Positions 25,034-53,960 of a DNA stretch of 64,000 nucleotides are shown piece after piece. How positions within the stretch are numbered: the stretch's first letter is position 1; each line of letters begins with the position of its first letter. Position numbers and translations under genes: made by a program. This DNA comes from Priestia megaterium. Lineage in GTDB: Bacteria; Bacillota; Bacilli; Bacillales; Bacillaceae_H. The stretch covers positions 5,001-69,000 of the forward strand of contig NZ_CP023319.1 in assembly GCF_009497655.1 (NCBI RefSeq), written 5' to 3'. The notes below the pieces were generated by a model. The model was not told where the DNA came from. It was given only the letters and a program-made list of their open reading frames with translations, and searched no databases.

Positions 25034-25058
25034 TTTTCTCACCTCGTTTAATTTTTAA

Positions 25059-25619: not shown

Positions 25620-25708
25620 AACTAACACTCCTTTTTCATGGTATGTATTAATATATGAACATACCAATCAATAGGATTGGGCCAATTGACCATTGAGTGC
25701 AACCATTT

Positions 25709-34148: not shown

Positions 34149-34167
34149 TCCTTTTTTATTTATATAC

Positions 34168-34210
34168 TATTTTATTCATTTGTTTATAAAATGTTTGTGT
34201 GCTTGTCCAA
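34168..34210 (-). promoter_or_regulatory. sigma-K-like promoter of the Ena-like gene
   Basis: Minus strand ATTGGACAAGCACACAAAC (34193 upwards), 16 bp, AATAAAATA (34168-34176). The upstream 19-mer is near-identical to that before 63676. Confidence 0.58.
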
Positions 34211-34576
34211 TAATAGTCATTTTCATAAAAAAAGTGATTATTCGACTATCTAATTTCAGGTTAACAACACGGTAAAGGAATTATTTGTATGTAGAGATAA
34301 GGTAATTAGAGTAGAAATTTCGCAGAGGTTGGTTGTTTGATAAGCTAATAGAAACAGTAGTAGTGAAGTTTAAGGCGTAAACAAAGATGTAAAATTCAAG
34401 TACAATACAATGCTTTAATTGCAGAATTTCACCCCCTCACCATTTGGTGAATAGAAAATGCATTCATGCATGATTACTTTAACAATTAGAGCATTCACCT
34501 TTTGTTCCCTCTCAGGTGTCTTTCTGGAATCAAAAGGTGAATCTCCACACCTATACAAATACATATAATAAACTGT
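34211..34576. other. non-coding region with 12-bp inverted repeat
   Basis: No credible ORF. ATTCACCTTTTG (34492-34503) and its exact reverse complement (34531-34542) flank 27 bp, and a smaller CACCATTTGGTG palindrome lies at 34439-34450; all share the CACC/GGTG core. They lie just 3' of the RHH/zinc-finger gene, so they could be its terminator or binding sites. Confidence 0.45.
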
Positions 34577-35651: not shown

Positions 35652-36392
35652 TTGATACGTAGATACGTTCTCTGTAAAAAGATCTCTTACAAAAAAAAGA
35701 AACGAAAAGCTCATTGTTACAGATCACCCCATTCTGTATATGTTTCCAATTCACAATCTATATTGGTATTTTGTTCCATCCATAACCTCTGTAATCAAAA
35801 GTACAGAGGGCCTCAGGGACCTCAGGGGCCTCAAGGGCCTCAGGGACCTCAAGGACCTCAGGGGCCTCAGGGACCTCAAGGACCTCAGGGGCCTCAAGGA
35901 CCTCAGGGGCCTCAGGGGCCTCAAGGATCTCAAGGGCCTCAGGGACCTCAGGGGCCTCAGGGGCCTCAAGGATCTCAAGGGCCTCAGGGACCTCAGGGGC
36001 CTCAGGGGCCTCAAGGATCTCAAGGGCCTCAGGGACCTCAGGGGCCTCAGGGGCCTCAAGGATCTCAAGGGCCTCAGGGACCTCAGGGGCCTCAGGGGCC
36101 TCAGGGGCCTCCACTCTCAGATTTAATTCCCTCCACTAATTTATTATATTTTACTTTTTCAGATGGTCAAAAACGCCTATATACCAATAATGATGGGATA
36201 GCTCAATATGGAACCACTGAAATATTGGCACCTGAAGAAGCTTCTTATATCAATTTATTTATTAATGGTATTCTACAGCCTGATATTAATTATCAAATTC
36301 AAAAAGGAAGCTTAACTTTACTCACAGAAGAAGTACCTTCAAAAGAGGTTCCCATTATTATCCAATTTGTGTTAATTAATAAGGAAGTATAA
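35652..36392 (+). CDS. collagen-like protein with C-terminal DUF4183 domain
   Basis: 246 residues, TTG start with AAAGGAGG upstream. The head (about 1-52) is basic with four Cys ([17 protein letters not shown]). Then come 34 Gly-X-Y triplets, nearly all GPQ, with GSQ every fifth triplet in the later part. The tail (about 155-246) is a DUF4183 domain: [18 protein letters not shown] and IIIQFVLI. Collagen-like spore proteins (BclA) form the hair-like nap of exosporia, but this one lacks the BclA targeting motif and has a DUF4183 instead of the C1q-like trimeriser. GPQ in place of the usual Thr-containing triplets means few sites for O-glycosylation in the stalk. Confidence 0.88.
35808..36113 (+). 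repeat. 9-bp / 45-bp collagen repeat
   Basis: 34 consecutive 9-bp triplet codons with a 45-bp higher-order unit (four GPQ and one GSQ) four times near the 3' end. Recent slippage is likely, and length should vary. Confidence 0.9.
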
Positions 36393-36477: not shown

Positions 36478-36762
36478 TTAGTTTACAACAAATTCAACCA
36501 CAATAGGGGTAGCAGATGCAAGGGTGTCTCCATCAGGAATGGTAATAAAACTATTAGTAACTGTTGAAGTATCACCTGTTTGAATTTGCCCGTTAATATA
36601 AAGATTATAATAAGCAGGAGCAGTTGGAAAAACTGTAGCAGCTGTTCCTCCATCAGTAGTAAAAGCTGTAGCAAGAATACTATAGGTAGCGCCAGTACCT
36701 GTTCCTGCTCCTGCAGTGCTACTAAACCTTAAAGAATTCATAAAGGGCTTAACGATTGGCAT
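36478..36762 (-). CDS. stand-alone DUF4183 protein
   Basis: 94 residues; ATG with GGGAGGA upstream. MPIVKPFMNSLRF, then TAPAYYNLYINGQIQTGD and ATPIVVEFVVN at the end show the DUF4183 pattern (N-x-YINGx-Q and a final PI-V-EF). It shares this domain with the collagen protein beside it and the gene at 37081, which starts MPIIKP. No signal peptide. DUF4183 is found mainly in spore formers; function is unknown, but the link to a collagen stalk suggests a terminal or assembly domain. Confidence 0.82.
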   Translation of the reverse strand: MPIVKPFMNSLRFSSTAGAGTGTGATYSILATAFTTDGGTAATVFPTAPAYYNLYINGQIQTGDTSTVTNSFITIPDGDTLASATPIVVEFVVN

Positions 36763-37080: not shown

Positions 37081-37485
37081 ATGCCTATTATTAAACCTGT
37101 TTTTACAGCCACTAGTACAATTGCTGGAGATATTACAGTAGCAACAGCAACGAGTGTGGCTCCTACCCCAGCAAGATTTACAACATTTGTAACGGCCCCA
37201 ATGGTTGCAGGAGGAGTCACATCGATACCTGCTGGAAGCTTTATTGATGATGTAGGAGCAACAATCACAGCTTTGCCTGATGTAACAGCTAATTCTTACG
37301 CTAATATATATATCAATGGAGTCATGCAACCTACTAATGTCTACACTTTATCTACTACAGCCTTAAATATTGATGATACTGTAACTGTTGGAGCACCTGT
37401 AATTGTAGAATTTGTTACTCACTCTGCAACTTCTACCTCAACTCCAACTAGTACGTTATCTGTCACTACCGTAATTAATACGTAA
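37081..37485 (+). CDS. stand-alone DUF4183 protein with Ser/Thr tail
   Basis: 134 residues, ATG with GAAAGGAG upstream. Starts MPIIKPVFTATSTIAGD; the DUF4183 core is SYANIYINGVMQPTNVYTLS and PVIVEFVTH. The last 25 residues are Ser/Thr/Pro-rich (SATSTSTPTSTLS), a possible O-glycosylation site. It is transcribed divergently from the other stand-alone copy, sharing 318 bp of upstream DNA. A perfect terminator follows. Confidence 0.82.
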   Translation: MPIIKPVFTATSTIAGDITVATATSVAPTPARFTTFVTAPMVAGGVTSIPAGSFIDDVGATITALPDVTANSYANIYINGVMQPTNVYTLSTTALNIDDTVTVGAPVIVEFVTHSATSTSTPTSTLSVTTVINT

Positions 37486-37686: not shown

Positions 37687-38388
37687 GTGATTGATATAAA
37701 CTTACAAGATATAAAAGGCTCTTATAATTTGGTGGCTGGCTTAGGAAGCTGGTGTGGCCCAGCGCTTTATTCCGAACGTCACGGTTTGAGAAGGCATTCG
37801 TTTCCTCTTGATTGGATGCAATCTCCTTTTCTCCCTGACGTAAATACATTATTAAGAAACAAATTTCAAGGTTTTATGGAAGTAGAAAACATAATTGAAA
37901 AAGACATACTAGCTAATTATGTAGATGATAATGGATATCCTATTTTTAAATCCGGCACTTCTGAATCAATAAGAGCTCATTATGTTACAGATATTAAATA
38001 TAACATTGACTCTGTTCACGACTTTCCTATGGTTCCTAACCAAGACTGGTCTGTCCAATACCCACCTTATAAAATAAGATTAGATCATCGTATTCAAACA
38101 TTTCTTAATCAAATTGCACAAAGTCAACGTACGTTATTTATAAGATATGAATGGATGCCCACAAGCTACGAAGACGTAATTAACTTAAAATCAATTTTAA
38201 CAGACATGACTAACGGTAACTTTAACCTTCTGTTAGTTGAGACTGTTGACGAAGAATTACATGGAGTAAAAGACATGAATTTTGGAACACCTGAAGACAA
38301 AATTTGTTGGGTTCAAGTTTCGCGAGATAATTGCACCAATACTTCTGTTTGGAATGATTTATTAAGCGGAATAACACTATTAAATTAA
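37687..38388 (+). CDS. DUF1796 putative papain-like cysteine peptidase, copy 4
   Basis: About 230 residues, most similar to copy 2: GLGSWCGPALYS with the candidate Cys, FPLDW, SVHDFPMVPNQDW with the candidate His, FIRYEW. The GTG at 37687 is part of the SD AAAGGAGTGAT. The codon that aligns with the initiators of copies 1-3 is ATA at 37696 (ATA-AAC-TTA-CAA against GTG-AAT-TTA-CAG), so translation probably starts at ATA. TTGTCCAATCAA at 37631 is shared with copy 2. It lies next to coat and DUF4183 genes, again tying DUF1796 to the spore surface. Confidence 0.85.
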   Translation: MIDINLQDIKGSYNLVAGLGSWCGPALYSERHGLRRHSFPLDWMQSPFLPDVNTLLRNKFQGFMEVENIIEKDILANYVDDNGYPIFKSGTSESIRAHYVTDIKYNIDSVHDFPMVPNQDWSVQYPPYKIRLDHRIQTFLNQIAQSQRTLFIRYEWMPTSYEDVINLKSILTDMTNGNFNLLLVETVDEELHGVKDMNFGTPEDKICWVQVSRDNCTNTSVWNDLLSGITLLN

Positions 38389-38496: not shown

Positions 38497-38985
38497 TTGA
38501 GTTGTTCTAAAAAAAGAAAGTGCTACTGTAGTTGTCTAAATTCCAAACCTTCAAGAAAAAAAGAAAAAAATTGTAAAAAAACAAGATGTGCAGAGAAAAA
38601 TTATTTTTGTTCCAATAGATATAATAATGCACTTATTGAAACTGATACAAGACAAGAGATCCTCAGTGATCAAGTTTCTGATTCAATCATTCTTGTGAAA
38701 AACTCCTGTGATGTTACTATTACTGCAACAGATACACAGACAACCATATTTCTTCAAAGCTTCATACAAATATTAACCATTTTCTTACTTTCAATAGGTC
38801 TCGATGCCAATTCAATAAGGCTGTTTTTACAAGAAGTTTCTCAGACCGCAAGGTCACTTCAATTAAATAGACAAAGAGTTATCGTTAAAAACAGTAAAGG
38901 TGTCAATGTAACAACATCCAATAACGATACAGCTGTTTTTATACAAAATTTTTTACAAGCGTTGACCTTATTACTAACTCCTTAG
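38497..38985 (+). CDS. spore coat protein CotX/CotV family, copy 3
   Basis: 162 residues, TTG start with AAAGGAGG upstream. The head is rich in Cys and Lys (nine Cys in the first 45 residues, for example KRKCYCSCLNSK). Two CotX-type repeats follow: ILVKNSCDVTITATDTQ with a hydrophobic IQILTIFLL stretch and VIVKNSKGVNVTTSNND with LQALTLLLT. Compared with copies 1 and 2 it has more Cys and a shorter head. CotX family proteins are cross-linked outer-coat components. Confidence 0.9.
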   Translation: MSCSKKRKCYCSCLNSKPSRKKEKNCKKTRCAEKNYFCSNRYNNALIETDTRQEILSDQVSDSIILVKNSCDVTITATDTQTTIFLQSFIQILTIFLLSIGLDANSIRLFLQEVSQTARSLQLNRQRVIVKNSKGVNVTTSNNDTAVFIQNFLQALTLLLTP

Positions 38986-39405: not shown

Positions 39406-39933
39406 CTATCCGTATTTCCCATTTCTTAATGTAGCAAGTAATTGTTCTAAATTGTATTTTCTCGCAATAGGAAATAAGCTTTTCCCTGGTTCTCCTTCAT
39501 ACTTCTGAAAAAGATCCAATATAATAGGTCGGTTTTCTTCATGAAATTTATCAATTTTGTAAAAGCTTTGTTTAACCAATTTTTCAGTTATTTTTATGTG
39601 CATTTGTTTATTCTGTTCTCGTATTAAAAATCGTTCTTTAGATTCTTTAGGGACAACATCTAAAAAAATAATAATATCGGCTTTACTAAAACGTAAATCA
39701 TACGTATCTAGATATCCCCATCCCTCAACAATCCAACTTGCTGTATTTAACACCTTTTCCAACCTTTTTTTAAAATATCTCTTTCTTTGCCGAATTTGCG
39801 TTATTTTTCTCATTTTAGGTTCTCTAAACCACAAATCTAAATGATGGATAGGTATATGTAATTTTTCACTTAACTGTGTAGCTAGTGTAGTTTTACCAGA
39901 ACAAGAATTTCCTAATATAACAATTTTATACAC
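39406..39933 (-). CDS. FlaR-like P-loop kinase (topology modulation family)
   Basis: 175 residues. GTG 39933 is chosen (GAGGTG 6 nt upstream); the GTG at 39942 overlaps that SD. GNSCSGKTTLA is the P-loop near residue 10, HHLDLWF and ASWIVEGWGYLD follow, and DIIIFLDV is the Walker B-like strand. This is the adenylate-kinase-like family often called DNA topology modulation protein FlaR; true substrates are unknown. Nothing in the neighbourhood explains it. It lies between a coat gene and the giant gene, on the minus strand. Confidence 0.8.
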   Translation of the reverse strand: MYKIVILGNSCSGKTTLATQLSEKLHIPIHHLDLWFREPKMRKITQIRQRKRYFKKRLEKVLNTASWIVEGWGYLDTYDLRFSKADIIIFLDVVPKESKERFLIREQNKQMHIKITEKLVKQSFYKIDKFHEENRPIILDLFQKYEGEPGKSLFPIARKYNLEQLLATLRNGKYG

Positions 39934-40037
39934 AAATATCACCTCAATTCATGTATAAAATTAAATCAAGCTATTTATTACCATTTCTATACATTCAATT
40001 ATGCTCGTTACGTACAAAACATCGTGAATCTTAATTC

Positions 40038-40085: not shown

Positions 40086-43000
40086 TTATTTTCTTATAAC
40101 AAATTTAATAGTAACTTGAACCGATTCTCCTTCTATACTAACTATCTGCACAACAGCTGAATCCTCTCCTATAAAGTTTACGTTAGGGATGTAAATAAAC
40201 TCGCCTGTCTCCGTATTAAGTTTAAATTTACCATTCTTCGTCCCTTTGACGATTTGATATTTAAGAGGTAGGTTTTTGACTGTACAAGCATCGATTTCAC
40301 CACATATTTTCTTGTTAATGGTTCCTTTTATACATTGATCAGATACCTTTATAGGACATTTACCTTTTGATTTAGTTTTGCGTGGATCTCGCAACGATTT
40401 CTTTTTAGTATTAGATTTACCAGGAACTGGTGTGGGTGCCGGCGACACTCTTCTTTCCACGATGAAAGTAAGTGCTGCTTCACTTGAAGCTCCATCCGAA
40501 TTAGTAACTCTTATAATCACCGTATCGGTCCCCACAAAATTAACATTAGGGACATAAATGAACTGGCCTGTATTCTGATTAATTCTAAACTGGCCGTTTT
40601 GAGGACCTGTTATAGCTTGATAAGTTAGTGGTAAAGAATTTGGATCAAAAGCAATGAGCTGACCAGTAGTAAGGGTATTAACAAATAACTTAATTACTTG
40701 CCCTACCACATTAGGAGGCTGAGGGTCTCTGCCTACTACAACTGTTACCACTACGAGCAATTCTGTTCCTAAATCATCTCGTACTAATACAGTAAAAGTG
40801 TCTGTTCCTACAAAATTAGGTGCAGGCTGGTAGACAAACCTTCCATTGGAATCAACGGTTACGCTACCACTTAAAGGAGCTGTTGCTAGTGTGTAATTTA
40901 ATGGACGTTCTAGCAAATTAGTTACCTGAATATTACCAACCACTTGAACACCCTGCAAAGTAGCAAAGGTATTATTTCCTGGAGTAATTATATTATTGCT
41001 TGCAGTAGAATTAATGGTAACAATTGAAAACGCTTGTTGTCCGTCACTGTTTCTTACAGATACCACAAATTGATCCTGACCAATAAATCCTAAATTTGGT
41101 GTATAACTAAACGTTCCATCTGATCGTAGTACAAGTACTCCATTTGTTGGTGGGGTAGCCACAGCAAAGGTAAGAGGTCTTCCAAGTGCATCTGTTGCGA
41201 TGATTTGGCTTTCAATAATTTGACCAGTTGGTGTGGTTAAAAGCTGATTTTCAACTGTAATTAGATCATTAACTCCCTGAATCAAAACAGTAACACTAGT
41301 TGTTGCTGACTGACCAAGATTATTTGTAACAATTACTGTGAAAGAATCTATACCAGTAAATCCTGGATTCGACGTATAGCTAAATGAACCGTCCGGATTA
41401 AAATTCACTGTTCCGTTTGCTGGTAGACTCTGAACTTGGTAGGTTAATGGATTACCCAATGCATCCACTGCCGTAACCTGACCGGTAACAGGTTGATTCG
41501 TTACTCCTTGAAGCGTAAGAGGGGTAACAACAATGCTATCTTGTTGTTCTTGAACAACTATCCGCACAATACCAATTGCAGAGTCGCCTCTGTCATTTTG
41601 AATTAATACAGTAAAACTATCTACTCCAAAAAATGCTGGACTTGGTGTATAGCTAAACGTTCCATCTGCATTTACCACAGCTGCTCCATTGGATGGAGAT
41701 GCATTTAAAGAAAATCTAATTGGTCTCCCAAGATTATCAGTAGCTGATATCGTCCCTGAGACAGTTACACCTTGCTGAGTCTGTACTGTGATGTCTTGTG
41801 GTGTAATAGTACTTTGAACCGGATCAATTATAATTGAAACTGAAGCAATTGCTTGATCTCCTTGATCATTTTGAACCAGAACGTCAAATTGATCTGTTCC
41901 ACTCACACCAGGAGTCGGTGTATAAACAAACGTTCCATCTGGATTTAAAATAACCGTTCCATAAGCAGGGAGATTGTTAAGGGTGTAGGTTAGTGGCCTA
42001 TTTAGCTGATCTCGAACTGAAAGTTCACCATTTACACTCTGCCCTTCTACTGTTCGAACAATGGTATTACTGGCTACAATTTGATTAGCCAATTGTGTAA
42101 CAGTTATTTGAACCGTAGTAGCTGCATTTAAACCCGTTTCGTTTTGAACAGACACTGTAAAAGAATCCGTTCCGACGAATCCTGGATTTGGTGTATACGT
42201 AAAAGTGCCGTCTGGGTTTAGTATTAAAATTCCATTCACTGGTCCGCCAAGTAAGGTATAAGTTAATGCTTCTCCTTGTGGGTCAATAGCTACAATACTT
42301 CCTGTTACAGGCTGCTGTTCGGTTGTTGATAGTGCTTGATTAGCTACAATTGGCGCCTGTTCTATCGGTCCCTGAGTGACAACAGAAATAGTTGCAACAG
42401 CTGTATTGCCAAGAACATCGCTTACAAGTACTTGAAATTGATCTGTTCCAAAGAATCCAGTATTTGGCGTATAGATAAATGTCCCATCTGGGTTAACTAT
42501 GACAGATCCACTATTTGGATTAGACGTAAGCGTATAAAACAATTGGTTTCCACTCAAATTTGTAGCACTTACTTGCCCAGAAACTGGCGTATTGAATAAA
42601 GTCGTTATTTCACTATTTACCACTGAAATTCTGTCTCCTACTACTACTGTCACAACAGCATTAGCAATACTTTGATTTCCAGCTGAATCTATAACAACGA
42701 TATCGAAGATATCTTCTCCTGTGAATCCAGGATTGGGCGTATAAACTAAAGTTCCATCTTGATTTAATACAACAGTTCCATTTGATGGCGGAATGGCTAC
42801 AGCATAACTTAATGGAGAGCCTGCTGGATTCACAGTAGCAATAGACCCACTTACAGGTTGATTTGCTAAAGTAGTTAAAGTTAGCCCTTCAGCGCTAATC
42901 GGTAAATCTTGAGACTGAACTTCTACAGTAATAGTTCCAAACCCCTGGTTTCCAAGAGGATCTCTGGCAAAAACAGAGAATGAATCTGTTCCTACAAAAC

Positions 43001-46000
43001 TTGGGTTCGGCGTGTACGTAAATGTTCCATCTGAATTAATAATGGCAGTACCATTAAGTGGTGCTAAATTTAGACCATATACTAGTGGATCTCCTTCAGG
43101 GTCAAAGGCAGGAACTTGCCCTGTTACAAACTGACCCTGTACAGTTGATAGTGATAAATCTACGACAATCGGTGGTTGGTTCACTCGAATTACACTGATA
43201 GTTACAAGAGATTGTGCACTAGCTCCACGACTATCCCTTACCTCCACTGTGAAAGAATCCAAACCAATAAAATTAGGATTTGGGGTATATAAAAAGGTAC
43301 CATCTGGATTTACCACAGCTGTTCCATTAAAAGGAGTACCCGATAAACTAAAAATGAGTAAGTTATCGTCTGGATCTGTGGCAAAAACTTGCCCACTAAT
43401 TGCTACATTTTCTATAGTCTGAAGGATAACATCACTTGTAATTGGCGAACTGTTCACGTCGATAACTGTAACATTTACAATAGACACTGCTGTGAGACCT
43501 GTTGAATCTTCTACAATAACCGTAAATAAATCTGGACCTACATAATTAGAATTAGGTGAATATATAAAACTGCCATCTATATTTACTACGGCGCTTCCAT
43601 TGACTGGAGAAGTGCCTAAACGATAAGTGAGCAAATCCCCATTCGGATCGCTTCCTACTACCTGGCCAGTTACAGATTGATTTTCAGGAGTGGTAACCGA
43701 ATAATTAGGTACAGTGGGTGGCTGTTCAACTGGTATAACAATAACAAATACATTCGTAATAATAAACTGTCCAGCTGGATCGGCTATACGTACAGTAAAT
43801 GTATCATTTCCAGCAAAATTCTCATTTGGTACATAAGTGAATAACCCTTCTTGATTGATTACGGCTGTTCCATTAGTCGGTAGATCTTGTAAGGTGTACG
43901 TCAGAGGATCTCCTTCGGGATCAGTTGCTACGATTTGGCCTGTAACAGGGCTTTCTTCAAAAGTAGTAACCGTAATAACATCTGGACCTACTGGTGGATC
44001 ATTTACTGGCAGAATCGTAATCGTGATGGTGGAAACGGCTGTTTCTCCTTGGCCGTCGCTTACTACCACACTAAAGCTATCTACCCCGTTGTAATTTTCG
44101 TTTGGCGTATACGTGTAGGTCCCGTCTGAATTTACTACCACCGTTCCATTTGCTGGACCTGTCAGTAACCCATATGTTAGGGGATTTCCGTCCACATCTG
44201 TTGCCACCACTTGGCTATTTAAACTCGTGTCTTCGTTGATCACAAACTCATAGTTCGGCACCACTGGTACATCGTTCACTGGCGTGACTGTCACAAATAC
44301 ATTTGTCACTATAAATGCGCCCGACGGGTCGCTTATTAACACCGTAAATGTATCCGGACCATTATAATTTCCATTTGGTGTATACGTGAACGTACCATCT
44401 GGATTTACCACTGCCACTCCGTTTGTTGGCGGATCTTGTAAGCTGTACGTCAGCACCTCTCCATCTGGATCAAACGCTGTAATTTGACTCGACACTGGCG
44501 TATCTTCATTGGTAACCAACGTCACCACCACTGGACCTACTGGTGGATCGTTTACTGGCAGAATCGTAATCGTGATGGTGGAAATGGCCGTTCCTCCTTG
44601 GCCGTCGCTTACTACGACACTAAAGCTATCTACCCCGTTGTAATTTTCATTTGGCGTATACGTGTAGGTTCCGTCTGGATTTACTACCACCGTTCCATTC
44701 ACCGGACCTGTCAGTAACCCGTACGTTAGGGGATTTCCGTCCACATCCGTTGCCACCACTTGGCTATTTAAACTCGTGTCTTCGTTGATCACAAACTCAT
44801 AGTTCGGCACCACTGGTACATCGTTCACTGGCGTGACCGTTACAAATACATTTGTCACTATAAATGCGCCCGACGGGTCGCTTATTAACACCGTAAATGT
44901 ATCCGGACCATTATAATTTTCATTTGGCGTATACGTGAACGTACCATCTGGATTTACCACTGCCACTCCGTTTGTTGGCGGATCTTGTAAGCTGTACGTC
45001 AGCACCTCTCCATCTGGATCAAACGCTGTAATTTGACTCGATACTGCCGTATCTTCATTGGTAACCAACGTCACCACCACTGGACCTACTGGTGGATCAT
45101 TTACTGGCAGAATCGTAATCGTGATGGTGGAAATGGCTGTTCCTCCTTGGCCGTCGCTTACTACCACACTAAAGCTATCTACCCCGTTGTAATTTTCGTT
45201 TGGCGTATACGTGTAGGTCCCGTTTGAATTTACTACCACCGTTCCATTTGCTGGACCTGTGAGTAACCCATATGTTAGGGGATTTCCGTCCACATCTGTT
45301 GCCACCACTTGGCTATTTAAACTCGTGTCTTCATTGATCACAAACTCATAATTCGGCACCACTGGTGCATCGTTCACTGGCGTAACCGTTACTAATACAT
45401 TTGTCACTATAAATGCGCCCGACGGGTCGCTTATTAACACCGTAAATGTATCCGGACCATTATAATTTTCATTTGGCGTATACGTGAACGTACCATCTGG
45501 ATTTACCACTGCCACTCCGTTTGTTGGCGGATCTTGTAAGCTGTACGTCAGCACCTCTCCATCTGGATCAAACGCTGTAATTTGACTCGATACTGCCGTA
45601 TCTTCATTGGTAACCAGCGTTACCACCACCGGACCTACTGGTGGATCATTTACTGGCAGAATCGTAATTGTAATGGTTGAAACCGCCGTTCCTCCTTGGC
45701 CATCGCTTACTACGACGCTAAAGCTATCTACCCCGTTGTAATTTTCATTTGGCGTATACGTGTAGGTTCCGTCTGGATTTACTACCACCGTTCCATTCAC
45801 CGGACCTGTCAGTAACCCGTACGTTAGGGGATTTCCGTCCACATCTGTTGCCACCACTTGGCTATTTAAACTCGTGTCTTCGTTGATCACAAACTCATAG
45901 TTCGGCACCACTGGTACATCGTTCACTGGCGTGACCGTCACAAATACATTTGTCACTATAAATGCGCCCGACGGGTCGCTTATTAACACCGTAAATGTAT

Positions 46001-49000
46001 CCGGACCATTATAATTGCCATTCGGTGTATACGTGAACGTACCATCTGGATTTACCACAGCCACTCCGTTTGTTGGCGGATCTTGTAAGCTGTACGTCAG
46101 CACCTCTCCATCTGGATCAAACGCTGTAATTTGACTCGACACTGGCGTATCTTCATTGGTAACCAACGTCACCACCACTGGACCTACTGGTGGATCATTT
46201 ACTGGCAGAATCGTAATTGTAATGGTTGAAACCGCCGTTCCTCCTTGGCCATCGCTTACTACGACGCTAAAGCTATCTACCCCGTTGTAATTTTCATTTG
46301 GCGTATACGTGTAGGTTCCGTCTGGATTTACTACCACCGTTCCATTCACCGGACCTGTCAGTAACCCGTACGTTAGGGGATTTCCGTCTACATCCGTTGC
46401 CACCACTTGGCTATTTAAACTCGTGTCTTCGTTGATCACAAACTCATAGTTCGGCACCACTGGTACATCGTTCACTGGCGTGACTGTCACAAATACATTT
46501 GTCACTATAAATGCGCCCGACGGGTCGCTTATTAACACCGTAAATGTATCCGGACCATTATAATTGCCATTTGGCGTATACGTGAACGTACCATCTGGAT
46601 TTACCGCAGCCACTCCGTTTGTTGGCGGATCTTGTAAGCTGTACGTCAGCACCTCTCCATCTGGATCAAACGCTATAATTTGACTCGATACTGCCGTATC
46701 TTCATTGGTAACCAACGTCACCACCACTGGACCTACTGGTGGATCATTTACTGGCAGAATCGTAATCGTGATGGTGGAAATGGCTGTTCCTCCTTGGCCA
46801 TCGCTTACTACGACACTAAAGCTATCTACCCCGTTGTAATTTTCATTTGGCGTATACGTGTAGGTTCCATCTGGATTTACTACCACCGTTCCATTCACCG
46901 GACCTGTCAGTAACCCGTACGTTAGGGGATTTCCGTCTACATCCGTTGCCACCACTTGGCTATTTAAACTCGTGTCTTCATTGATCACAAACTCATAATT
47001 CGGCACCACTGGTGCATCGTTCACTGGCGTAACCGTTACTAATACATTTGTCACTATAAATGCGCCCGACGGGTCGCTTATTAACACCGTAAATGTATCC
47101 GGACCATTATAATTGCCATTTGGTGTATACGTGAACGTACCATCTGGATTTACCACTGCCACTCCGTTTGTTGGCGGATCTTGTAAGCTGTACGTCAGCA
47201 CCTCTCCATCTGGATCAAACGCTGTAATTTGACTCGATACTGCCGTATCTTCGGTTGTAACCAACGTCACCACCACCGGACCTACTGGTGAATCATTTAC
47301 TGGCAGAACCGTAATCGTGATGGTGGAGATGGCTGTTCCTCCTTGGCCGTCGCTTACTAGTACGGTAAATTGGTCAGTTCCATTAAAGTTTGCATTCGGT
47401 GTATAGGTATACATCCCATCTAACCCTACGTTTACTATTCCGTTCACTGGAGCATTTTGTAACGAATAATCCAGCTGATTACCATCAATATCAGTTGCAA
47501 TTACCATAGAAGTTACAGGTGTGTCTTCGTTAGTCGTCAACTGATAATTTGGAACAATTGGAGAATCATTTATTGGAATAACTGTAACGATAACTGATGC
47601 AGTAGCATTTCCTCCTAAGTTATCAGTTATATATACTACAAAAGCATCTGAACCGTTAAAGTTTGCATTCGGTGTATACGTAAATATTCCTGTATTAGAA
47701 TCAATTGTTACTACTCCATTAATGGGTGGGTTTTCAATAGTGTAAACAAGTGGATTTCCATTTACATTAGTAGCAATTACTTGATTTGTTACTGGTGTGT
47801 CTTCATCAGTAGAGATTTGCAAATCCTGTGAAGTTGTAGTTCCGTTTGTTTCAAGGACCGTTACAAAAATAGTCGATAGTGCAGTGGCTCCTTCTGGGTC
47901 TGTTATTAATATGGTGAATTGATCATTACCTATGAAATTGTTATTAGGTGTATAAATGAATGTACCATCTTGATTTATGACAGCTGTACCATTATCTGGA
48001 TTTTGTTGAAGAGTATAGGTTAGAGTAACGTTGTCAGGGTCTGAAGCAGGTATGCTGCTTGTAACAGGAAGATTAATGGTCGTTGTAACAGCTCTATCTC
48101 CTCCTACTGGCGGATCGTTTACAGGCACGATTGTTAAGGTCACAGTAGAAAGGGAAGTTCCTCCTTTACCATCTGATACCAGCACACCAAAAGTATCCAT
48201 TCCGTTATAATTTAAATTTGGTGTATAGGTAAATACTCCATTTGCCCCTAATACAACACTTCCATTTGACGGAGGCGGATTCAGCAAAGTAAATGTCAAC
48301 GGATCCCCATCTGGATCAAAAGCTGGAATTTGATTTGTAAGAGGTGTATCTTCATTAATTGTAAATGCTAAATCAGCGGTGATTGGAGGGTCATTCACTG
48401 GAATTACGTTTATTGTAACGGTCGAAACCGCCGTTCCCCCCTGACCATCTGACACCAATACCGTAAATTGATCTGTCCCATTAAAATCTAGGTTTGGCTG
48501 GTAGCTAAATGTTCCATCTCCATTCACCACAGCTACTCCGTTTACTGGCGCAGCCTGTAGCTGATAACTAAGAGGATTTCCATCCACATCTGTCCCTACC
48601 ACTACTCCTACCACAGGACTATCTTCTTGCGTACTGAACGTGTAGTTCGGCACCGTTGGTGCATCATTCACTGGCGTGACTGTTACCGTCACCGTTGAAA
48701 CTGCCGTTCCTCCTTGACCATCTGACACCAACACGGTAAACTGATCCGTCCCATTAAAGTTCAGGTTCGGCTGATAACTAAACGTTCCATCCGTATTCAC
48801 CACGGCCACTCCGTTGCCTGGTGCCGTTTGTAGGCTAAACGTTAACGGGTTTCCATCGGGATCTACCGCCACTACTTGATTGATTAACGTGCTATCTTCC
48901 GCAATCGTAAAGCTAACATTGGACGTAGTTGGGGGATCATTGACAGGGATAACGTTGATGGTCACCGTTGAAACTGCCGTTCCTCCCTGACCGTCTGACA

Positions 49001-52000
49001 CCAATACCGTAAACTGATCCGTCCCATTAAAATTCAAGTTTGGTTGATAACTAAACGTTCCATTTGCATTCACGGCAGCTATTCCATTTGTTGGACCATT
49101 TTGCAGCTCATAACTAAGAGGATTTCCATCCACGTCCGTTCCTACCACTGCTCCTACCACAGGGCTGTCTTCTTGCGTACTAAACGTGTAATTTGGCACC
49201 GTCGGTGCATCATTCACTGGCGTGACTATTACCGTCACCGTTGAAACTGCCGTTCCTCCTTGGCCATCTGACACCAACACGGTAAACTGATCCGTCCCAT
49301 TAAAGTTCAGGTTCGGCTGATAACTAAACGTTCCATCCGTATTCACCACGGCCACTCCGTTGCCCGGTGCCGTTTGTAAGCTAAACGTTAACGGATTTCC
49401 ATCGGGATCTACCGCCACTACTTGATTGATTAACGTGCTATCTTCCGCAATCGTAAAACTAACATTGGACGTAATTGGGGGATCATTGACAGGGATAACG
49501 TTGATGGTCACCGTTGAAACCGCCGTTCCTCCCTGACCGTCTGACACCAATACCGTAAACTGATCCGTCCCATTAAAATTCAGGTTTGGTTGATAACTAA
49601 ACGTTCCATCTGCATTCACGGCAGCTATTCCATTTGTTGGACCATTTTGCAGCTCATAACTAAGAGGGTTTCCATCCACGTCCGTTCCTACCACTGCTCC
49701 TACCACAGGACTGTCTTCTTGCGTACTAAACGTGTAATTTGGCACCGTCGGTGCATCATTCACTGGCGTGACTATTACCGTCACCGTTGAAACTGCCGTT
49801 CCTCCTTGGCCATCTGACACCAACACGGTAAACTGATCCGTCCCATTAAAGTTCAGGTTCGGCTGGTAGCTAAACGTTCCATCCGTATTCACCACGGCCA
49901 CTCCGTTGCCCGGTGCCGTTTGTAGGCTAAACGTTAACGGATTTCCATCGGGATCTACCGCCACTACTTGATTGATTAACGTGCTATCTTCCGCAATCGT
50001 AAAACTAACATTGGACGTAATTGGGGGATCATTGACAGGGATAACGTTGATGGTCACCGTTGAAACCGCCGTTCCTCCCTGACCGTCTGACACCAATACC
50101 GTAAACTGATCCGTCCCATTAAAATTCAAGTTTGGTTGATAACTAAACGTTCCATTTGCATTCACGGCAGCTATTCCATTTGTTGGACTATTTTGCAGCT
50201 CATAACTAAGAGGATTTCCATCCACGTCCGTTCCTACCACTGCTCCTACCACAGGGCTGTCTTCTTGCGTACTAAACGTGTAATTTGGCACCGTCGGTGC
50301 ATCATTCACTGGCGTGACTATTACCGTCACCGTTGAAACTGCCGTTCCTCCTTGGCCATCTGACACCAACACGGTAAACTGATCCGTCCCATTAAAGTTC
50401 AGGTTCGGCTGATAACTAAACGTTCCATCCGTATTCACCACGGCCACTCCGTTGCCCGGTGCCGTTTGTAAGCTAAACGTTAACGGATTTCCATCGGGAT
50501 CTACCGCCACTACTTGATTGATTAACGTGCTATCTTCCGCAATCGTAAAACTAACATTGGACGTAATTGGGGGATCATTGACAGGGATAACGTTGATGGT
50601 CACCGTTGAAACCGCCGTTCCTCCCTGACCGTCTGACACCAATACCGTAAACTGATCCGTCCCATTAAAATTCAAGTTTGGTTGATAACTAAACGTTCCA
50701 TTTGCATTCACGGCAGCTATTCCATTTGTTGGACCATTTTGCAGCTCATAACTAAGAGGATTTCCATCCACGTCCGTTCCTACCACTGCTCCTACCACAG
50801 GACTGTCTTCTTGCGTACTAAACGTGTAATTTGGCACCGTCGGTGCATCATTCACTGGCGTGACTATTACCGTCACCGTTGAAACTGCCGTTCCTCCTTG
50901 GCCATCTGACACCAACACGGTAAACTGATCCGTCCCATTAAAGTTCAGGTTCGGCTGGTAGCTAAACGTTCCATCTGCATTTACCACGGCCACTCCGTTG
51001 CCCGGTGCCGTTTGTAGGCTAAACGTTAACGGGTTTCCATCAGGATCTACCGCCACTACTCGGTTGATTAACGTGCTATCTTCCGCAATCGTAAAGCTAA
51101 CATTGGACGTAATTGGGGGATCATTGACAGGGATAACGTTGATGGTCACCGTCGAAACCGCCGTTCCTCCTTGGCCATCTGACACCAATACCGTAAATTG
51201 ATCACTTCCATTAAAATTCAAGTTTGGTTGATAACTAAACGTTCCATTTGCATTTACTACTGCTACTCCATTTGTTGGCCTATTTTGCAGCTGATAGCTA
51301 AGAGAATTCCCATCTACATCGGTCCCTACGACTGCTCCTACCACAGGACTGTCTTCTTGCGTACTAAACGTGTAATTTGGCACCGTCGGTGCATCATTCA
51401 CTGGCGTGACTATTACCGTCACCGTTGAAACTGCCGTTCCTCCTTGGCCATCTGACACCAACACGGTAAACTGATCCGTCCCATTAAAGTTCAGGTTCGG
51501 CTGGTAGCTAAACGTTCCATCTGCATTCACCACGGCCACTCCGTTGCCCGGTGCCGTTTGTAGGCTAAACGTTAGCGGGTTTCCATCAGGATCTACCGCC
51601 ACTACTCGGTTGATTAACGTGCTATCTTCCGCAATCGTAAAGCTAACATTGGACGTAATTGGGGGATCATTGACAGGGATAACGTTGATGGTCACCGTCG
51701 AAACCGCCGTTCCTCCTTGGCCATCTGACACCAATACCGTAAATTGATCACTTCCATTAAAATTCAAGTTTGGTTGATAACTAAACGTTCCATTTGCATT
51801 TACTACTGCTACTCCATTTGTTGGCCTATTTTGCAGCTGATAGCTAAGAGAATTCCCATCTACATCGGTCCCTACGACTGCTCCTACCACAGGGCTATCT
51901 TCTTGTGTAGTAAACGTGTAGTTTGGCACCGTCGGTGCATCGTTCACCGGCGTTACTGTCACTGTTACTGTCGAAACGGCCGTGCCTCCCTGACCATCTG

Positions 52001-53897
52001 AGACCAACACGGTAAACTGATCGCTTCCGTTGAAATTTAAATTGGGGGTATACGTGTAACCTCCACTATTAGTTACGGTAACTGTTCCGTTTGTTGGTGG
52101 AGATTGTAATTGGAAGGTAAGTAAGTCACCATCTACATCTGTAGCTTGTATCTGACCAACTAAAGGGGTATCTTCATTAGTGATAACTGCATAGTTTTGA
52201 GTAACAGGATTATCGTTTACAGGCGTATTGATTATGGTAACTACAGAGGTAGCTGTTCCTCCTTGCCCATCGTCTACAATAACTGTAAATTGATCCGTTC
52301 CGTTAAAGTTTAAATTTGGGGTATAGACAAATTGACCATTAGGATTAACAGTTACTATTCCATTAGTCGGCCTCGTACCAACACGATAAGTTAGAGGATT
52401 CCCATCAATATCACTGCCAATGACTGTTCCAATAGCTACAGTATCTTCAGGGTTTGTAATAGTATAATTTGGAACTGTGGGAGGAGTGTTAATAGCTGTT
52501 ACACTATTGACAGGAGAAGCACCTGATCCTGTTAATACGTTTCCTGGTGTACTTTCAAATTGGTAATTAATAAAAACTTGATTGCCAAGAGAAGAGATTG
52601 ATGTTAGAGGGCCAGCTACTCTAACCTGATATGTCAAAACCCGAGTTTGATTAATATTTAATGTACCAAGCGACAAACCATTTCGGATATCTGCATTTGT
52701 CTGAGTAACTCCATCCACTTGCAAACTATTAGGAATAAAGGTTGTTGCTGAAGACAATGGATCTGTAGCTATTAGAACATTGGCCGAAGCTGTGCCGGTA
52801 TTACTTACTTGGACTGTATAAGTAATAATATCTCCTGTTCGAGCAGATGTAGCATTAGCAGACTTCGATACATTTAAAACAGGCGCATTAATATCTACTT
52901 GAAGAGCTAAAGCACTAATAACGTAAGTATCTCCATTTGTCGTCCCACGTACGACGGCACTGGTTTGGTTATTTGATAACCGAGCTGAGACGTCAATATT
53001 GGTAATATCCCACCCCTGCCTAGCACCCGATAAGCTTCCTCCGGGTGTGCTATTTAAACTGCCAAATTGTCCACTTGTATCTAATACACCACTATCATTA
53101 TTAATTTGAGAAGCAAAAAAGTTATTTATAGGATTATTCGGTCCCGAAACTGGTTGCAAAGCTGCAACCGTAGGGCCGAATTGGAGCTGATCACCTACTA
53201 TAGCTGAATCCCCTTCAATAGCACTTACTAATAATCTACCATTTACTGTTCCTGTAATAGGTGTACCAAATCCAGTTACAGCTGCAGTAGAGCTTCCTGT
53301 AGATGAACTGGTCAATTCTGCTCCAACAAAAATAGACAAGTTTCGAGATTTCTGTAACGGATCAGCATATACTACGGCCAATGTCCACCCAGCTGCATTT
53401 GCATTGTTTTCTGTTGTACTTTGTGTTCCAGGAACACCCTGTACTGAATACGTACCTGCTTGAGAAATCAAATTTGTCACGTTTGCACTGCGCACATAAT
53501 AAAAGCTTGAAGTCGTTAAGGTAAAACGTGTTGCTGTATCTGGCTGCACACTAACTGTTCTGATAGGAGTAATAAAAGTCACAGCGTTATTTAAAGCTGC
53601 GCTAACATCTTCTCCACCATAAAGATAGCTTCCACCCCATATTAATTCTGCATAAAGAATTTGAGTAGTGCTAGATGGGAGTCTTAAAACTGCACTAGAA
53701 GAGTTTTGCAGATAATTTGCCGTAGTTCCTGTAGGAAACGATCCATCTATGGAGCTTGGATTTACACTGAAAAAAGTTCCTATTGAGCCTGCTGTTCCAG
53801 GAGCATTAGCATTGGCTTGCTTATTTAAGCCAAAAGTGTTTCCTGTAAATGTAACAGCCCCATTAGCGTTGGTTAAAAACCGATTAACATATGGCAT
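40086..53897 (-). CDS. giant 4603-residue tandem-95/cadherin-like repeat protein with DUF11 domain
   Basis: One open frame of 13.8 kb; ATG with GAGGTG upstream. Residues 1-330 are a unique beta-rich head (MPYVNRFLTNANGAVTF), with no signal peptide. About 340-470 is a DUF11 domain (LNVSKSANATSARTGDIITY). From about 480 on I count some 45 units of about 91 residues of the tandem-95/Ig-like type (PVND-P, EDTP/EDS, VDGNPLTY, PTNG, G-F-Y-PN-NFNG-D-FTV-VSDGQGGTA). Units 3-15 and 20-31 are near-identical two-unit blocks; others are diverged. The tail has a basic linker (SNTKKKSLRDPRKTKSKGK) with four Cys nearby and a last unit ending KFVIRK. No LPXTG or membrane anchor. Probably a very long fibre on the spore surface, released from the mother cell; this role is inferred. 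Confidence 0.93.
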   Translation of the reverse strand: MPYVNRFLTNANGAVTFTGNTFGLNKQANANAPGTAGSIGTFFSVNPSSIDGSFPTGTTANYLQNSSSAVLRLPSSTTQILYAELIWGGSYLYGGEDVSAALNNAVTFITPIRTVSVQPDTATRFTLTTSSFYYVRSANVTNLISQAGTYSVQGVPGTQSTTENNANAAGWTLAVVYADPLQKSRNLSIFVGAELTSSSTGSSTAAVTGFGTPITGTVNGRLLVSAIEGDSAIVGDQLQFGPTVAALQPVSGPNNPINNFFASQINNDSGVLDTSGQFGSLNSTPGGSLSGARQGWDITNIDVSARLSNNQTSAVVRGTTNGDTYVISALALQVDINAPVLNVSKSANATSARTGDIITYTVQVSNTGTASANVLIATDPLSSATTFIPNSLQVDGVTQTNADIRNGLSLGTLNINQTRVLTYQVRVAGPLTSISSLGNQVFINYQFESTPGNVLTGSGASPVNSVTAINTPPTVPNYTITNPEDTVAIGTVIGSDIDGNPLTYRVGTRPTNGIVTVNPNGQFVYTPNLNFNGTDQFTVIVDDGQGGTATSVVTIINTPVNDNPVTQNYAVITNEDTPLVGQIQATDVDGDLLTFQLQSPPTNGTVTVTNSGGYTYTPNLNFNGSDQFTVLVSDGQGGTAVSTVTVTVTPVNDAPTVPNYTFTTQEDSPVVGAVVGTDVDGNSLSYQLQNRPTNGVAVVNANGTFSYQPNLNFNGSDQFTVLVSDGQGGTAVSTVTINVIPVNDPPITSNVSFTIAEDSTLINRVVAVDPDGNPLTFSLQTAPGNGVAVVNADGTFSYQPNLNFNGTDQFTVLVSDGQGGTAVSTVTVIVTPVNDAPTVPNYTFSTQEDSPVVGAVVGTDVDGNSLSYQLQNRPTNGVAVVNANGTFSYQPNLNFNGSDQFTVLVSDGQGGTAVSTVTINVIPVNDPPITSNVSFTIAEDSTLINRVVAVDPDGNPLTFSLQTAPGNGVAVVNADGTFSYQPNLNFNGTDQFTVLVSDGQGGTAVSTVTVIVTPVNDAPTVPNYTFSTQEDSPVVGAVVGTDVDGNPLSYELQNGPTNGIAAVNANGTFSYQPNLNFNGTDQFTVLVSDGQGGTAVSTVTINVIPVNDPPITSNVSFTIAEDSTLINQVVAVDPDGNPLTFSLQTAPGNGVAVVNTDGTFSYQPNLNFNGTDQFTVLVSDGQGGTAVSTVTVIVTPVNDAPTVPNYTFSTQEDSPVVGAVVGTDVDGNPLSYELQNSPTNGIAAVNANGTFSYQPNLNFNGTDQFTVLVSDGQGGTAVSTVTINVIPVNDPPITSNVSFTIAEDSTLINQVVAVDPDGNPLTFSLQTAPGNGVAVVNTDGTFSYQPNLNFNGTDQFTVLVSDGQGGTAVSTVTVIVTPVNDAPTVPNYTFSTQEDSPVVGAVVGTDVDGNPLSYELQNGPTNGIAAVNADGTFSYQPNLNFNGTDQFTVLVSDGQGGTAVSTVTINVIPVNDPPITSNVSFTIAEDSTLINQVVAVDPDGNPLTFSLQTAPGNGVAVVNTDGTFSYQPNLNFNGTDQFTVLVSDGQGGTAVSTVTVIVTPVNDAPTVPNYTFSTQEDSPVVGAVVGTDVDGNPLSYELQNGPTNGIAAVNANGTFSYQPNLNFNGTDQFTVLVSDGQGGTAVSTVTINVIPVNDPPTTSNVSFTIAEDSTLINQVVAVDPDGNPLTFSLQTAPGNGVAVVNTDGTFSYQPNLNFNGTDQFTVLVSDGQGGTAVSTVTVTVTPVNDAPTVPNYTFSTQEDSPVVGVVVGTDVDGNPLSYQLQAAPVNGVAVVNGDGTFSYQPNLDFNGTDQFTVLVSDGQGGTAVSTVTINVIPVNDPPITADLAFTINEDTPLTNQIPAFDPDGDPLTFTLLNPPPSNGSVVLGANGVFTYTPNLNYNGMDTFGVLVSDGKGGTSLSTVTLTIVPVNDPPVGGDRAVTTTINLPVTSSIPASDPDNVTLTYTLQQNPDNGTAVINQDGTFIYTPNNNFIGNDQFTILITDPEGATALSTIFVTVLETNGTTTSQDLQISTDEDTPVTNQVIATNVNGNPLVYTIENPPINGVVTIDSNTGIFTYTPNANFNGSDAFVVYITDNLGGNATASVIVTVIPINDSPIVPNYQLTTNEDTPVTSMVIATDIDGNQLDYSLQNAPVNGIVNVGLDGMYTYTPNANFNGTDQFTVLVSDGQGGTAISTITITVLPVNDSPVGPVVVTLVTTEDTAVSSQITAFDPDGEVLTYSLQDPPTNGVAVVNPDGTFTYTPNGNYNGPDTFTVLISDPSGAFIVTNVLVTVTPVNDAPVVPNYEFVINEDTSLNSQVVATDVDGNPLTYGLLTGPVNGTVVVNPDGTYTYTPNENYNGVDSFSVVVSDGQGGTAISTITITILPVNDPPVGPVVVTLVTNEDTAVSSQIIAFDPDGEVLTYSLQDPPTNGVAAVNPDGTFTYTPNGNYNGPDTFTVLISDPSGAFIVTNVFVTVTPVNDVPVVPNYEFVINEDTSLNSQVVATDVDGNPLTYGLLTGPVNGTVVVNPDGTYTYTPNENYNGVDSFSVVVSDGQGGTAVSTITITILPVNDPPVGPVVVTLVTNEDTPVSSQITAFDPDGEVLTYSLQDPPTNGVAVVNPDGTFTYTPNGNYNGPDTFTVLISDPSGAFIVTNVFVTVTPVNDVPVVPNYEFVINEDTSLNSQVVATDVDGNPLTYGLLTGPVNGTVVVNPDGTYTYTPNENYNGVDSFSVVVSDGQGGTAVSTITITILPVNDPPVGPVVVTLVTNEDTAVSSQITAFDPDGEVLTYSLQDPPTNGVAVVNPDGTFTYTPNENYNGPDTFTVLISDPSGAFIVTNVLVTVTPVNDAPVVPNYEFVINEDTSLNSQVVATDVDGNPLTYGLLTGPANGTVVVNSNGTYTYTPNENYNGVDSFSVVVSDGQGGTAISTITITILPVNDPPVGPVVVTLVTNEDTAVSSQITAFDPDGEVLTYSLQDPPTNGVAVVNPDGTFTYTPNENYNGPDTFTVLISDPSGAFIVTNVFVTVTPVNDVPVVPNYEFVINEDTSLNSQVVATDVDGNPLTYGLLTGPVNGTVVVNPDGTYTYTPNENYNGVDSFSVVVSDGQGGTAISTITITILPVNDPPVGPVVVTLVTNEDTPVSSQITAFDPDGEVLTYSLQDPPTNGVAVVNPDGTFTYTPNGNYNGPDTFTVLISDPSGAFIVTNVFVTVTPVNDVPVVPNYEFVINEDTSLNSQVVATDVDGNPLTYGLLTGPANGTVVVNSDGTYTYTPNENYNGVDSFSVVVSDGQGETAVSTITITILPVNDPPVGPDVITVTTFEESPVTGQIVATDPEGDPLTYTLQDLPTNGTAVINQEGLFTYVPNENFAGNDTFTVRIADPAGQFIITNVFVIVIPVEQPPTVPNYSVTTPENQSVTGQVVGSDPNGDLLTYRLGTSPVNGSAVVNIDGSFIYSPNSNYVGPDLFTVIVEDSTGLTAVSIVNVTVIDVNSSPITSDVILQTIENVAISGQVFATDPDDNLLIFSLSGTPFNGTAVVNPDGTFLYTPNPNFIGLDSFTVEVRDSRGASAQSLVTISVIRVNQPPIVVDLSLSTVQGQFVTGQVPAFDPEGDPLVYGLNLAPLNGTAIINSDGTFTYTPNPSFVGTDSFSVFARDPLGNQGFGTITVEVQSQDLPISAEGLTLTTLANQPVSGSIATVNPAGSPLSYAVAIPPSNGTVVLNQDGTLVYTPNPGFTGEDIFDIVVIDSAGNQSIANAVVTVVVGDRISVVNSEITTLFNTPVSGQVSATNLSGNQLFYTLTSNPNSGSVIVNPDGTFIYTPNTGFFGTDQFQVLVSDVLGNTAVATISVVTQGPIEQAPIVANQALSTTEQQPVTGSIVAIDPQGEALTYTLLGGPVNGILILNPDGTFTYTPNPGFVGTDSFTVSVQNETGLNAATTVQITVTQLANQIVASNTIVRTVEGQSVNGELSVRDQLNRPLTYTLNNLPAYGTVILNPDGTFVYTPTPGVSGTDQFDVLVQNDQGDQAIASVSIIIDPVQSTITPQDITVQTQQGVTVSGTISATDNLGRPIRFSLNASPSNGAAVVNADGTFSYTPSPAFFGVDSFTVLIQNDRGDSAIGIVRIVVQEQQDSIVVTPLTLQGVTNQPVTGQVTAVDALGNPLTYQVQSLPANGTVNFNPDGSFSYTSNPGFTGIDSFTVIVTNNLGQSATTSVTVLIQGVNDLITVENQLLTTPTGQIIESQIIATDALGRPLTFAVATPPTNGVLVLRSDGTFSYTPNLGFIGQDQFVVSVRNSDGQQAFSIVTINSTASNNIITPGNNTFATLQGVQVVGNIQVTNLLERPLNYTLATAPLSGSVTVDSNGRFVYQPAPNFVGTDTFTVLVRDDLGTELLVVVTVVVGRDPQPPNVVGQVIKLFVNTLTTGQLIAFDPNSLPLTYQAITGPQNGQFRINQNTGQFIYVPNVNFVGTDTVIIRVTNSDGASSEAALTFIVERRVSPAPTPVPGKSNTKKKSLRDPRKTKSKGKCPIKVSDQCIKGTINKKICGEIDACTVKNLPLKYQIVKGTKNGKFKLNTETGEFIYIPNVNFIGEDSAVVQIVSIEGESVQVTIKFVIRK
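44010..47306 (-). repeat. C/D block: about six copies of a 549-bp two-domain repeat
   Basis: Units 20-31 of the giant protein alternate the forms VGPVVVTLVTNEDT and VVPNYEFVINEDT; the DNA period is 549 bp (183 residues) with few differences among copies. Confidence 0.85.
48400..51953 (-). repeat. A/B block: six and a half copies of a 546-bp two-domain repeat
   Basis: Units 3-15 alternate TVPNYTFSTQEDSPVV and ITSNVSFTIAEDSTLI forms with a 546-bp (182-residue) period. Near-identity suggests recent expansion or gene conversion and makes assembly collapse possible. Confidence 0.85.
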
Positions 53898-53929: not shown

Positions 53930-53960
53930 CAGTATATGTAAAGTACCAATAGAAATGTGT
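53930..53960 (-). promoter_or_regulatory. sigma-K-like promoter of the giant gene
   Basis: Minus strand ACACAT (53955-53960), 16 bp, CATATACTG (53930-53938), 33 bp before the ATG. The spacing equals that of the other shared elements, but the -35 part matches only at ACA. Confidence 0.4.

Follow-up and report, generated by a model that had tools for sequence, protein, structure and literature searches.

The window analysed here, a stretch of 64,000 nucleotides, comprises bases 5001–69000 of a 76,501-base contig, a 76.5-kb Priestia plasmid in a 5.24-Mb genome of three contigs. It contains an open reading frame of 4603 residues on the minus strand, running from an ATG at 53897 to a stop at 40086 with no internal stops. 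The gene, referred to in the following as the giant, its parts and its neighbours are:

40086..53897, minus: giant gene, 4603 aa; head, DUF11, 45 tandem-95/Ig-like stretches and basic Cys tail (ORF and profile searches)
53930..53959, minus: sigma-K-like promoter CACA-N17-CATATACTG, 62 to 33 nt before the giant's start codon (motif scan)
52893..53897, minus: head, aa 1–335, with invariant R6 and YAELIW and nearly invariant RQGWDITN
52545..52877, minus: DUF11 domain, aa 341–451 (PF01345, TIGR01451)
40467..52463, minus: rod, approximately aa 479–4477, acidic and cysteine-free, its 546-bp two-unit repeats near-identical in part (end set by eye)
40278..40466, minus: Pro/Lys/Arg-rich linker with all four Cys (boundaries by eye)
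40089..40277, minus: last, Ig-like tail unit, aa 4541–4603 (by eye)
39406..39942, minus: small P-loop kinase-like gene directly downstream of the giant; in type-2 plasmids a similar-size AAA gene follows the giant
38497..38985, plus: Coat_X spore coat protein (profile search)
37687..38388, plus: DUF1796 protein (Pfam)
37081..37485, plus: DUF4183 protein, F-ENA-type subunit, starting MPIIKPV (profile search; PMC11952670, available part)
36478..36762, minus: DUF4183 protein, F-ENA-type subunit, starting MPIVKPF (profile search)
35652..36392, plus: collagen-like and DUF4183 protein, F-Anchor-like layout (profile search; PMC11952670, available part)
33636..34148, minus: weak Enas (PF13157) match below cut-off; the counterpart in one plasmid, by position and length, is annotated as exosporium protein D
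24605..25667, minus: two further Coat_X genes (profile search)

When scanned against Pfam and NCBIfam, the head (aa 1–335) matched no family. It is followed by a single DUF11 copy, which was missed by the whole-protein Pfam scan but found when the head was scanned alone (PF01345, E 3.4e-10, 40.7 bits against a cut-off of 24.6); TIGR01451 (DUF11 / B_ant_repeat) scored 53.6 bits against a cut-off of 24. PF17963 (Big_9) and NF012211 (tandem-95) each matched 45 stretches, the latter with 2709.8 bits against a curated cut-off of 90, and the protein matched itself with peaks at 91 and 182 residues. The initial annotation had described a 13.8-kb gene with about 45 tandem-95/Ig-like units of some 91 residues behind a distinctive head and a DUF11 domain, and this layout was borne out. 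A PDB sequence search with the giant gave a good match for the DUF11 part only (9ifr_A, E 5.3e-6).

Residues 479–4300 have a predicted pI of 4.05 and contain one lysine, and Thr and Ser make up 20% of the rod. Residues 4440–4603 have a pI of 9.7 and hold 20 of the protein's 25 lysines. There are exactly four cysteines in the whole protein, at 4514, 4522, 4532 and 4538, so that the four tail cysteines pointed out earlier are the only ones. Thirty DxD[GN] motifs were counted in the giant. Calcium binding by motifs of this type is known from cadherin-like domains, and they might bind calcium and stiffen the rod.

By hydropathy, the first 40 residues contain no signal-like stretch (maximum over 12 residues, 0.72), and no membrane segment was seen in the whole protein (maximum over 19 residues, 1.68). 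No C-terminal LPXTG-type sorting signal was found; two LPXTG-like pentamers, at 3665 and 3793, both lie inside the rod. The protein thus has neither signal peptide nor LPXTG anchor, as had been claimed. Neither DUF4183 (PF13799) nor Enas (PF13157) was among the families matched at E up to 1, and the Pfam and NCBIfam scans yielded no collagen repeats, BclA_C domain or exosporium leader.

Comparison with an equal-length orthologue gave dN 0.0117, dS 0.124 and dN/dS 0.095 (0.048 for the head alone), which argues that the ORF is not a chance frame. Three other plasmid records have a gene of identical length (13,812 bp), and one of these (H11) differs by ≈8% in DNA over the first 2.9 kb; the gene is therefore not a frame artefact, a misassembly having been the initial annotation's own concern. 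The 546-bp two-unit repeats are up to 99% identical, and 24 of 142 sliding windows exceed 95%. Length was examined in 12 copies, that of the window and those in 11 of 22 PLSDB records: four are 13,812 bp, two are 12,717 bp, and single copies are 9,972, 14,907, 15,825, 15,861 and 15,867 bp. The frame is intact in 11 of the 12, the copy of strain Q3 being split into three CDS. Two of the length steps are 1,095 bp, or about four units; strains thus differ in length, in at least two cases by some four domains, and the length of the fibre may be tunable.

Plasmid setting

The giant had been placed among coat, collagen and DUF4183 genes, and the profile searches agree: Coat_X, DUF1796 and three DUF4183 genes, one of them fused to collagen, lie nearby. 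Across the 5.24-Mb genome, the searches found three Coat_X genes (six domain matches) and three DUF4183 genes, every one of them on this plasmid. F-ENA appendages are described in the available part of PMC11952670 as consisting of F-Anchor, F-ENA and F-BclA, with subunits starting MP-x-x-K-P and a collagen-DUF4183 anchor, and as occurring in Bacillus, Paenibacillus and Clostridia; the plasmid DUF4183 genes match this layout. A genome-wide PF13157 search of the host left the gene at 33636..34148 unmatched, and controls were likewise unmatched.

The first 2.9 kb of the giant matched 22 PLSDB records, all from Priestia and 21 of them over at least 80%; the near-identical plasmids belong to Priestia megaterium/aryabhattai. 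Every one of the 22 also carries DUF4183 (from a list of 30 records) and Coat_X (from a list of 44). This linkage is partly shared descent.

A 30-kb stretch of plasmid pBM600 was matched by 21 of 42 window queries in tblastn, in the same order as in window 15794–34577 except for one gene (27234). The annotated genes at the start of pBM600 (rep, integrase, MerR, S8 protease, DUF1796 and wecB) are also present in the window. The plasmid is thus largely collinear with pBM600. According to the available part of PMC4674009, the exosporium-less strains examined all lacked pBM600, which ties this plasmid to exosporium formation in strain QM B1551; a role of pBM500 could not be excluded by those authors. 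That all Coat_X and DUF4183 genes found sit on a pBM600-collinear plasmid argues for a place of the giant on the spore surface.

DUF4183 occurs without the giant in five Priestia records, three of which were inspected. F16 and Mes11, which are 88–94% identical to a type-2 plasmid around the locus, both lack the stretch that begins shortly before the giant and extends past the AAA gene, and their break points coincide; F16 keeps three DUF4183 genes and Mes11 a DUF4183 remnant. In pBM600, identity ends before DUF4183 and resumes past the AAA gene; an IS256 element is annotated between these two points. None of the QM B1551 records matched the head, and pBM600 lacks the giant block. Together, the plasmids with the block, those without the giant and pBM600 with its IS256 element form a ready natural experiment, and the species is harmless.

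Absence of the block from several related plasmids, the range of lengths from 9,972 to 15,867 bp and the one split copy in 12 would suit plasmid baggage, an expanding repeat gene of little function. Given the dN/dS ratios, lowest in the head, and the frame kept in 11 of the 12 copies examined, we consider this very unlikely.

Seven other genomes have intact giants, and DUF4183 occurs somewhere in six of them (G002, G004, G407, G408, G530 and G670) and not in G005. In these six it lies 23 kb or more from the giant or on another contig, the nearest being ≈23 kb away in G530. The genome with a broken giant (G779) has no DUF4183, which was found in 6 of 13 genomes with short heads and in 5 of 6 head-less genomes of the window's genus. 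Five giant genomes were searched for Coat_X: it was found in G407 and G408, and none was detected in G002, G004 or G005; in both G407 and G408, which belong to another genus, the only Coat_X gene lies ≈2 and 6 kb from the chromosomal giant. Near the first head loci searched, neither DUF4183 nor Coat_X was found outside Priestia plasmids. A dependence of the giant on F-ENA genes, suggested by the 22 plasmids, is thus weakened, the association being loose genome-wide. This makes a spore-surface fibre slightly less probable and its alternatives slightly more so.

The sigma-K-like site before the giant is unchanged in the type-1 plasmids aligned; in two type-2 plasmids aligned it is altered and the strict match is missing. 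The motif used relaxes the consensus given in the available part of PMC5749712. Such sites lie upstream of 6 of 27 head genes, against a shuffle mean of 0.34 and a maximum of 3 in 300 shuffles; about four of the six are independent, since they include orthologues (the window and L111) and paralogues (L166a and L166b). No strict match was present upstream of the window's Coat_X, DUF4183 and collagen genes.

Relatives of the head and their tails

A genome-contig scan yielded 204 head relatives; the analysis covers the best 80 of them, 75 from Bacillota and five from proteobacterial MAGs. The Bacillota heads among the best 80 are nearly all from Paenibacillus, with others from Priestia, Metabacillus, Cohnella and Bacillus. 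Within this set of 80, none of the 75 Bacillota loci has a hydrophobic stretch in the first 40 head residues (maximum KD12 1.57) or an upstream in-frame extension, within 60 codons, at KD12 of 2.2 or more, and in 57 of the 75 fewer than 12 residues are available upstream of the head. All five proteobacterial heads have a hydrophobic N-terminal stretch (KD12 2.63–3.33), with the head directly after the signal, and a signal peptide was seen by eye in a Thermus relative. Homologues tied to secretion had been named in advance as evidence against a spore protein; secreted homologues do exist, in the proteobacteria and Thermus, but none was found among the spore formers sampled. The contrast between 0 of 75 and 5 of 5 loci in the best 80 points to a spore-surface protein.

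Repeats of the tandem-95, CshA and Bap kinds are typical of adhesins, and the proteobacterial and Thermus relatives look secreted, as would fit a vegetative surface adhesin that lacks a classical signal, leaves the cell by non-classical or dedicated export or by lysis, and sits on a spore plasmid by chance. Against this, the giant lacks a wall anchor; no signal-like stretch precedes the head in any Bacillota locus of the best 80, and S-ENA, DUF4183 and Coat_X genes lie nearby in several settings. We therefore regard a vegetative adhesin as improbable.

Among 398 genomes of the phylum, full-length heads other than the window's own were found in four genomes of one family; the other genomes among the 21 matching gave partial matches, mostly to DUF11. 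At the level of the order, 23 of 397 genomes matched at E up to 1e-30, one of them (G654) in the DUF11 part only. Distribution is patchy within the window's genus, where 4 of 10 genomes have the head. In an unrooted tree of 60 heads, the five proteobacterial rows group together and, among the Bacillota rows, join the Priestia, P. flexa and Metabacillus giants (98/90); giants appear in three places, and 17 short proteins form one group (97/88). Co-occurrence with spoIVA was considered as a test and set aside because of its little power (26 of 26 head genomes versus 382 of 397 genomes of the order).

The MP-Y-V-N-R-F start of the head was also considered as an F-ENA hook and rejected, because the proteobacterial heads have the same stretch directly behind the signal peptide; moreover, R6 is invariant across 35 heads, whereas position 6 of the published hook is Pro (PMC11952670, available part).

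In 56 of the 75 Bacillota head genes (Paenibacillaceae-type loci, L010–L081), the start aligns to ATT, ATA or ATC after a ribosome-site-like run. Five of these (L014, L029, L033, L047 and L079) have no ATG, GTG or TTG between the upstream stop and that codon; in 50, a canonical codon further up has no ribosome site of its own by a crude test, and L030 has an ATG two codons earlier. Translational control is possible at these starts, as in infC. At eight Paenibacillaceae-type loci (L010, L011, L021, L028, L047, L064, L074 and L079), a gene of 438–575 aa that looks DUF11-like by eye begins where the head gene ends, and the two probably form an operon. Four giant head genes of 3,400–5,225 aa lie in tandem on a chromosome-sized contig of G002 (contig 1, 2396–2447 kb; L099–L102).

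Non-giant relatives in the order are proteins of ≈480–580 aa, with a head, a DUF11 domain and a short Cys-rich tail. Among 16 loci with such proteins (one of them on a plasmid), two or more Ena-like genes adjoin the short head gene, on one side or on both, at seven: L112, L163, L165, L167, L168, L169 and L170. PF13157 was confirmed by Pfam at five of the seven; the second Ena-like gene at L163 and the Ena-like genes at L169 had no Pfam match when tested, and at L169 and L170 the assignment depends on profile seeds to which those genes themselves belong. No Ena pair was present at the other nine (L156–L162, L164 and L166), of which L158 ends at a contig end. A BclA_C gene adjoins the short head gene at L162, with a similar gene at L168, and a further small plasmid has an S-ENA gene beside a head interrupted by the end of the record. 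ENA proteins made in the mother cell are held to be deposited like coat proteins (PMC12921279, available part). That 7 of the 16 short-head loci have S-ENA genes next to the relative also favours a spore-surface role.

Cysteines confined to the tail proved to be a recurrent trait. All Cys lie within the last 100 residues in 13 of 15 giants of the order, a count that includes close relatives and leaves out the stop-broken G779; these giants have one to four Cys in 2,850–6,170 residues. The larger piece of the G779 giant contains two Cys, which stand 79 and 2 positions ahead of its final residue. The pattern recurs in several unlike tails (Lys/Cys, F[RK]CSII and others), and the giants of type-2 plasmids (L110:20000–35824 and L122:11236–27096) have a Lys-rich tail with three to four evenly spaced Cys, unlike the type-1 tail. 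All 17 short proteins of the order have two to eight Cys in the last 100 residues. The recurrence in unlike tails fits the earlier idea that the cysteines lock the protein to the coat. A thiol anchor is not general: the giants of G407 and G408 end in another domain and lack tail Cys, and of 71 complete Paenibacillaceae-type copies just one carries a Cys among its last 100 residues, while 53 contain no Cys anywhere. The terminal domain of the G407 giant is 51% identical over 81 residues to the product of a small neighbouring gene. Small genes at L119:13596–14489 likewise have a helical motif resembling 'LLASIG.EE..LAHI.NAE', found at the C-terminus of the G407 and G408 giants; the one tested matched no Pfam family.

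The genomic evidence, namely the DUF4183, Coat_X and S-ENA neighbours, would serve equally for a matrix or glue protein of the coat, exosporium or extrasporal space, made in the mother cell, with the rod in or between layers as a cross-linker. Many near-identical units and a charged tail would suit a matrix, and exosporium genes of P. megaterium are plasmid-borne (PMC4674009, available part). However, thiols at one end only suit attachment by one end better than cross-linking, and some short relatives adjoin pilus genes; a matrix protein is, in our estimate, unlikely.

A putative spore-surface fibre

The suggestion of a giant spore-surface fibre built in the mother cell is the best-supported reading on this comparative evidence. 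The giant is probably a rod-shaped fibre made in the mother cell, anchored by its tail on the spore surface and related to endospore appendages. The single chain would be synthesized late in sporulation in the mother-cell cytoplasm, in which case no signal peptide would be needed. About 45 Ig-like domains in the cysteine-free, acidic rod would span roughly 0.2 µm at ≈4 nm per domain. The rod would be placed on the forespore surface, with the Lys/Arg-rich Cys tail attached to coat or exosporium, probably through disulfides, and would carry the conserved head outward. It may work together with F-ENA or S-ENA pili, and it would probably serve in the adhesion or spacing of spores.

By gene neighbourhood, the giant appears to belong with endospore-appendage parts, lying with F-ENA genes on Priestia plasmids and having short relatives that adjoin S-ENA genes. 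Genes for F-ENA-type subunits and a collagen-DUF4183 protein lie within ≈5 kb of it; F-ENA proteins, known to form a spore-surface fibre as is proposed for the giant, also lack a signal peptide, and Clostridium F-Anchor-3 has DUF11 domains, as the giant does (PMC11952670, available part). The giant differs in having neither DUF4183 nor collagen, in being one long chain rather than a polymer, and in that some giant genomes do not share the link to DUF4183. For S-ENA, cysteines in the Ena1C linker have been speculated to couple the fibre to the coat (PMC12921279, available part), which parallels our proposal for the tail. The giant itself lacks PF13157, although its short head and DUF11 relatives adjoin Ena genes, and the main text of PMC12921279, in its available part, does not mention DUF11. 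The appendages of Clostridium taeniosporum are ribbons whose DUF11 and collagen-like proteins are encoded together, with sigma-K-type promoters reported, but these proteins have at most 564 residues and no tandem-95 rod (PMC5749712, available part). The BclA nap of P. megaterium QM B1551 is a plasmid-encoded spore fibre in which BclA1 measures ≈190 nm, near the length predicted for the giant, but it is collagen-type and a different protein (PMC4674009, available part).

CrdA, CrdB and CrdC, reportedly described by Reiter and colleagues in 2011, are said to be products of large sporulation genes of the B. cereus group and very large DUF11-repeat proteins. They would resemble the giant in being very large, DUF11-bearing and sporulation-linked; on that description they are set apart by a long DUF11 array, the giant having a tandem-95/Ig rod with one DUF11. 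Endospore appendages and large sporulation genes such as crd are thus already known, as are DUF11 appendage proteins (PMC5749712, available part). Among the literature matches listed, in searches with subscription papers mostly outside their scope, nothing was found on the giant protein (tandem-95, DUF11 or Ig-like with spore, exosporium or appendages), nor any description of the head domain, the S-ENA-adjacent placement or the repeated tail-Cys pattern.

More tentatively, the head could be an unrecognised component of endospore appendages, shared by signal-less, tail-anchored spore proteins whose sizes run from ≈480 residues, for parts of S-ENA clusters, to 6,170 residues for the longest single-chain fibres. 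Giants would have been built about three times by inserting Ig or DUF11 rods between two ends, of which the head stayed constant and the anchor changed (Cys/Lys tails, one Cys at the terminus, or a helical domain common to small neighbour genes), and outside the spore formers sampled the head would carry a Sec signal. If so, a single-chain fibre joins the polymerised ENA pili and the collagen nap on the spore surface, and the head is a domain to seek in ENA clusters whose spore-side partners are unknown.

Some further genes of the plasmid deserve mention. A Lys/Asp/Cys-rich ORF at window 32875–33435 contains many ≈13-residue repeats (DKCKDKHEKDYGK) and matched no NCBIfam family. Several DUF1796-type genes are present (window 7044–8560, 12562–13185 and 37687–38388, the last by Pfam and the others by likeness); one also lies close to a giant of Paenibacillus (L023), and pBM600 has further annotated ones. 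A trio of wecB, PseB/FnlA-like and RmlD-like genes at window 8964–11859 forms a UDP-sugar pathway. It recurs ≈10 kb away from the closest giant of G002, and pBM600 carries it too by annotation, so it is not specific to giant plasmids; its products may glycosylate the Thr/Ser-rich rod.
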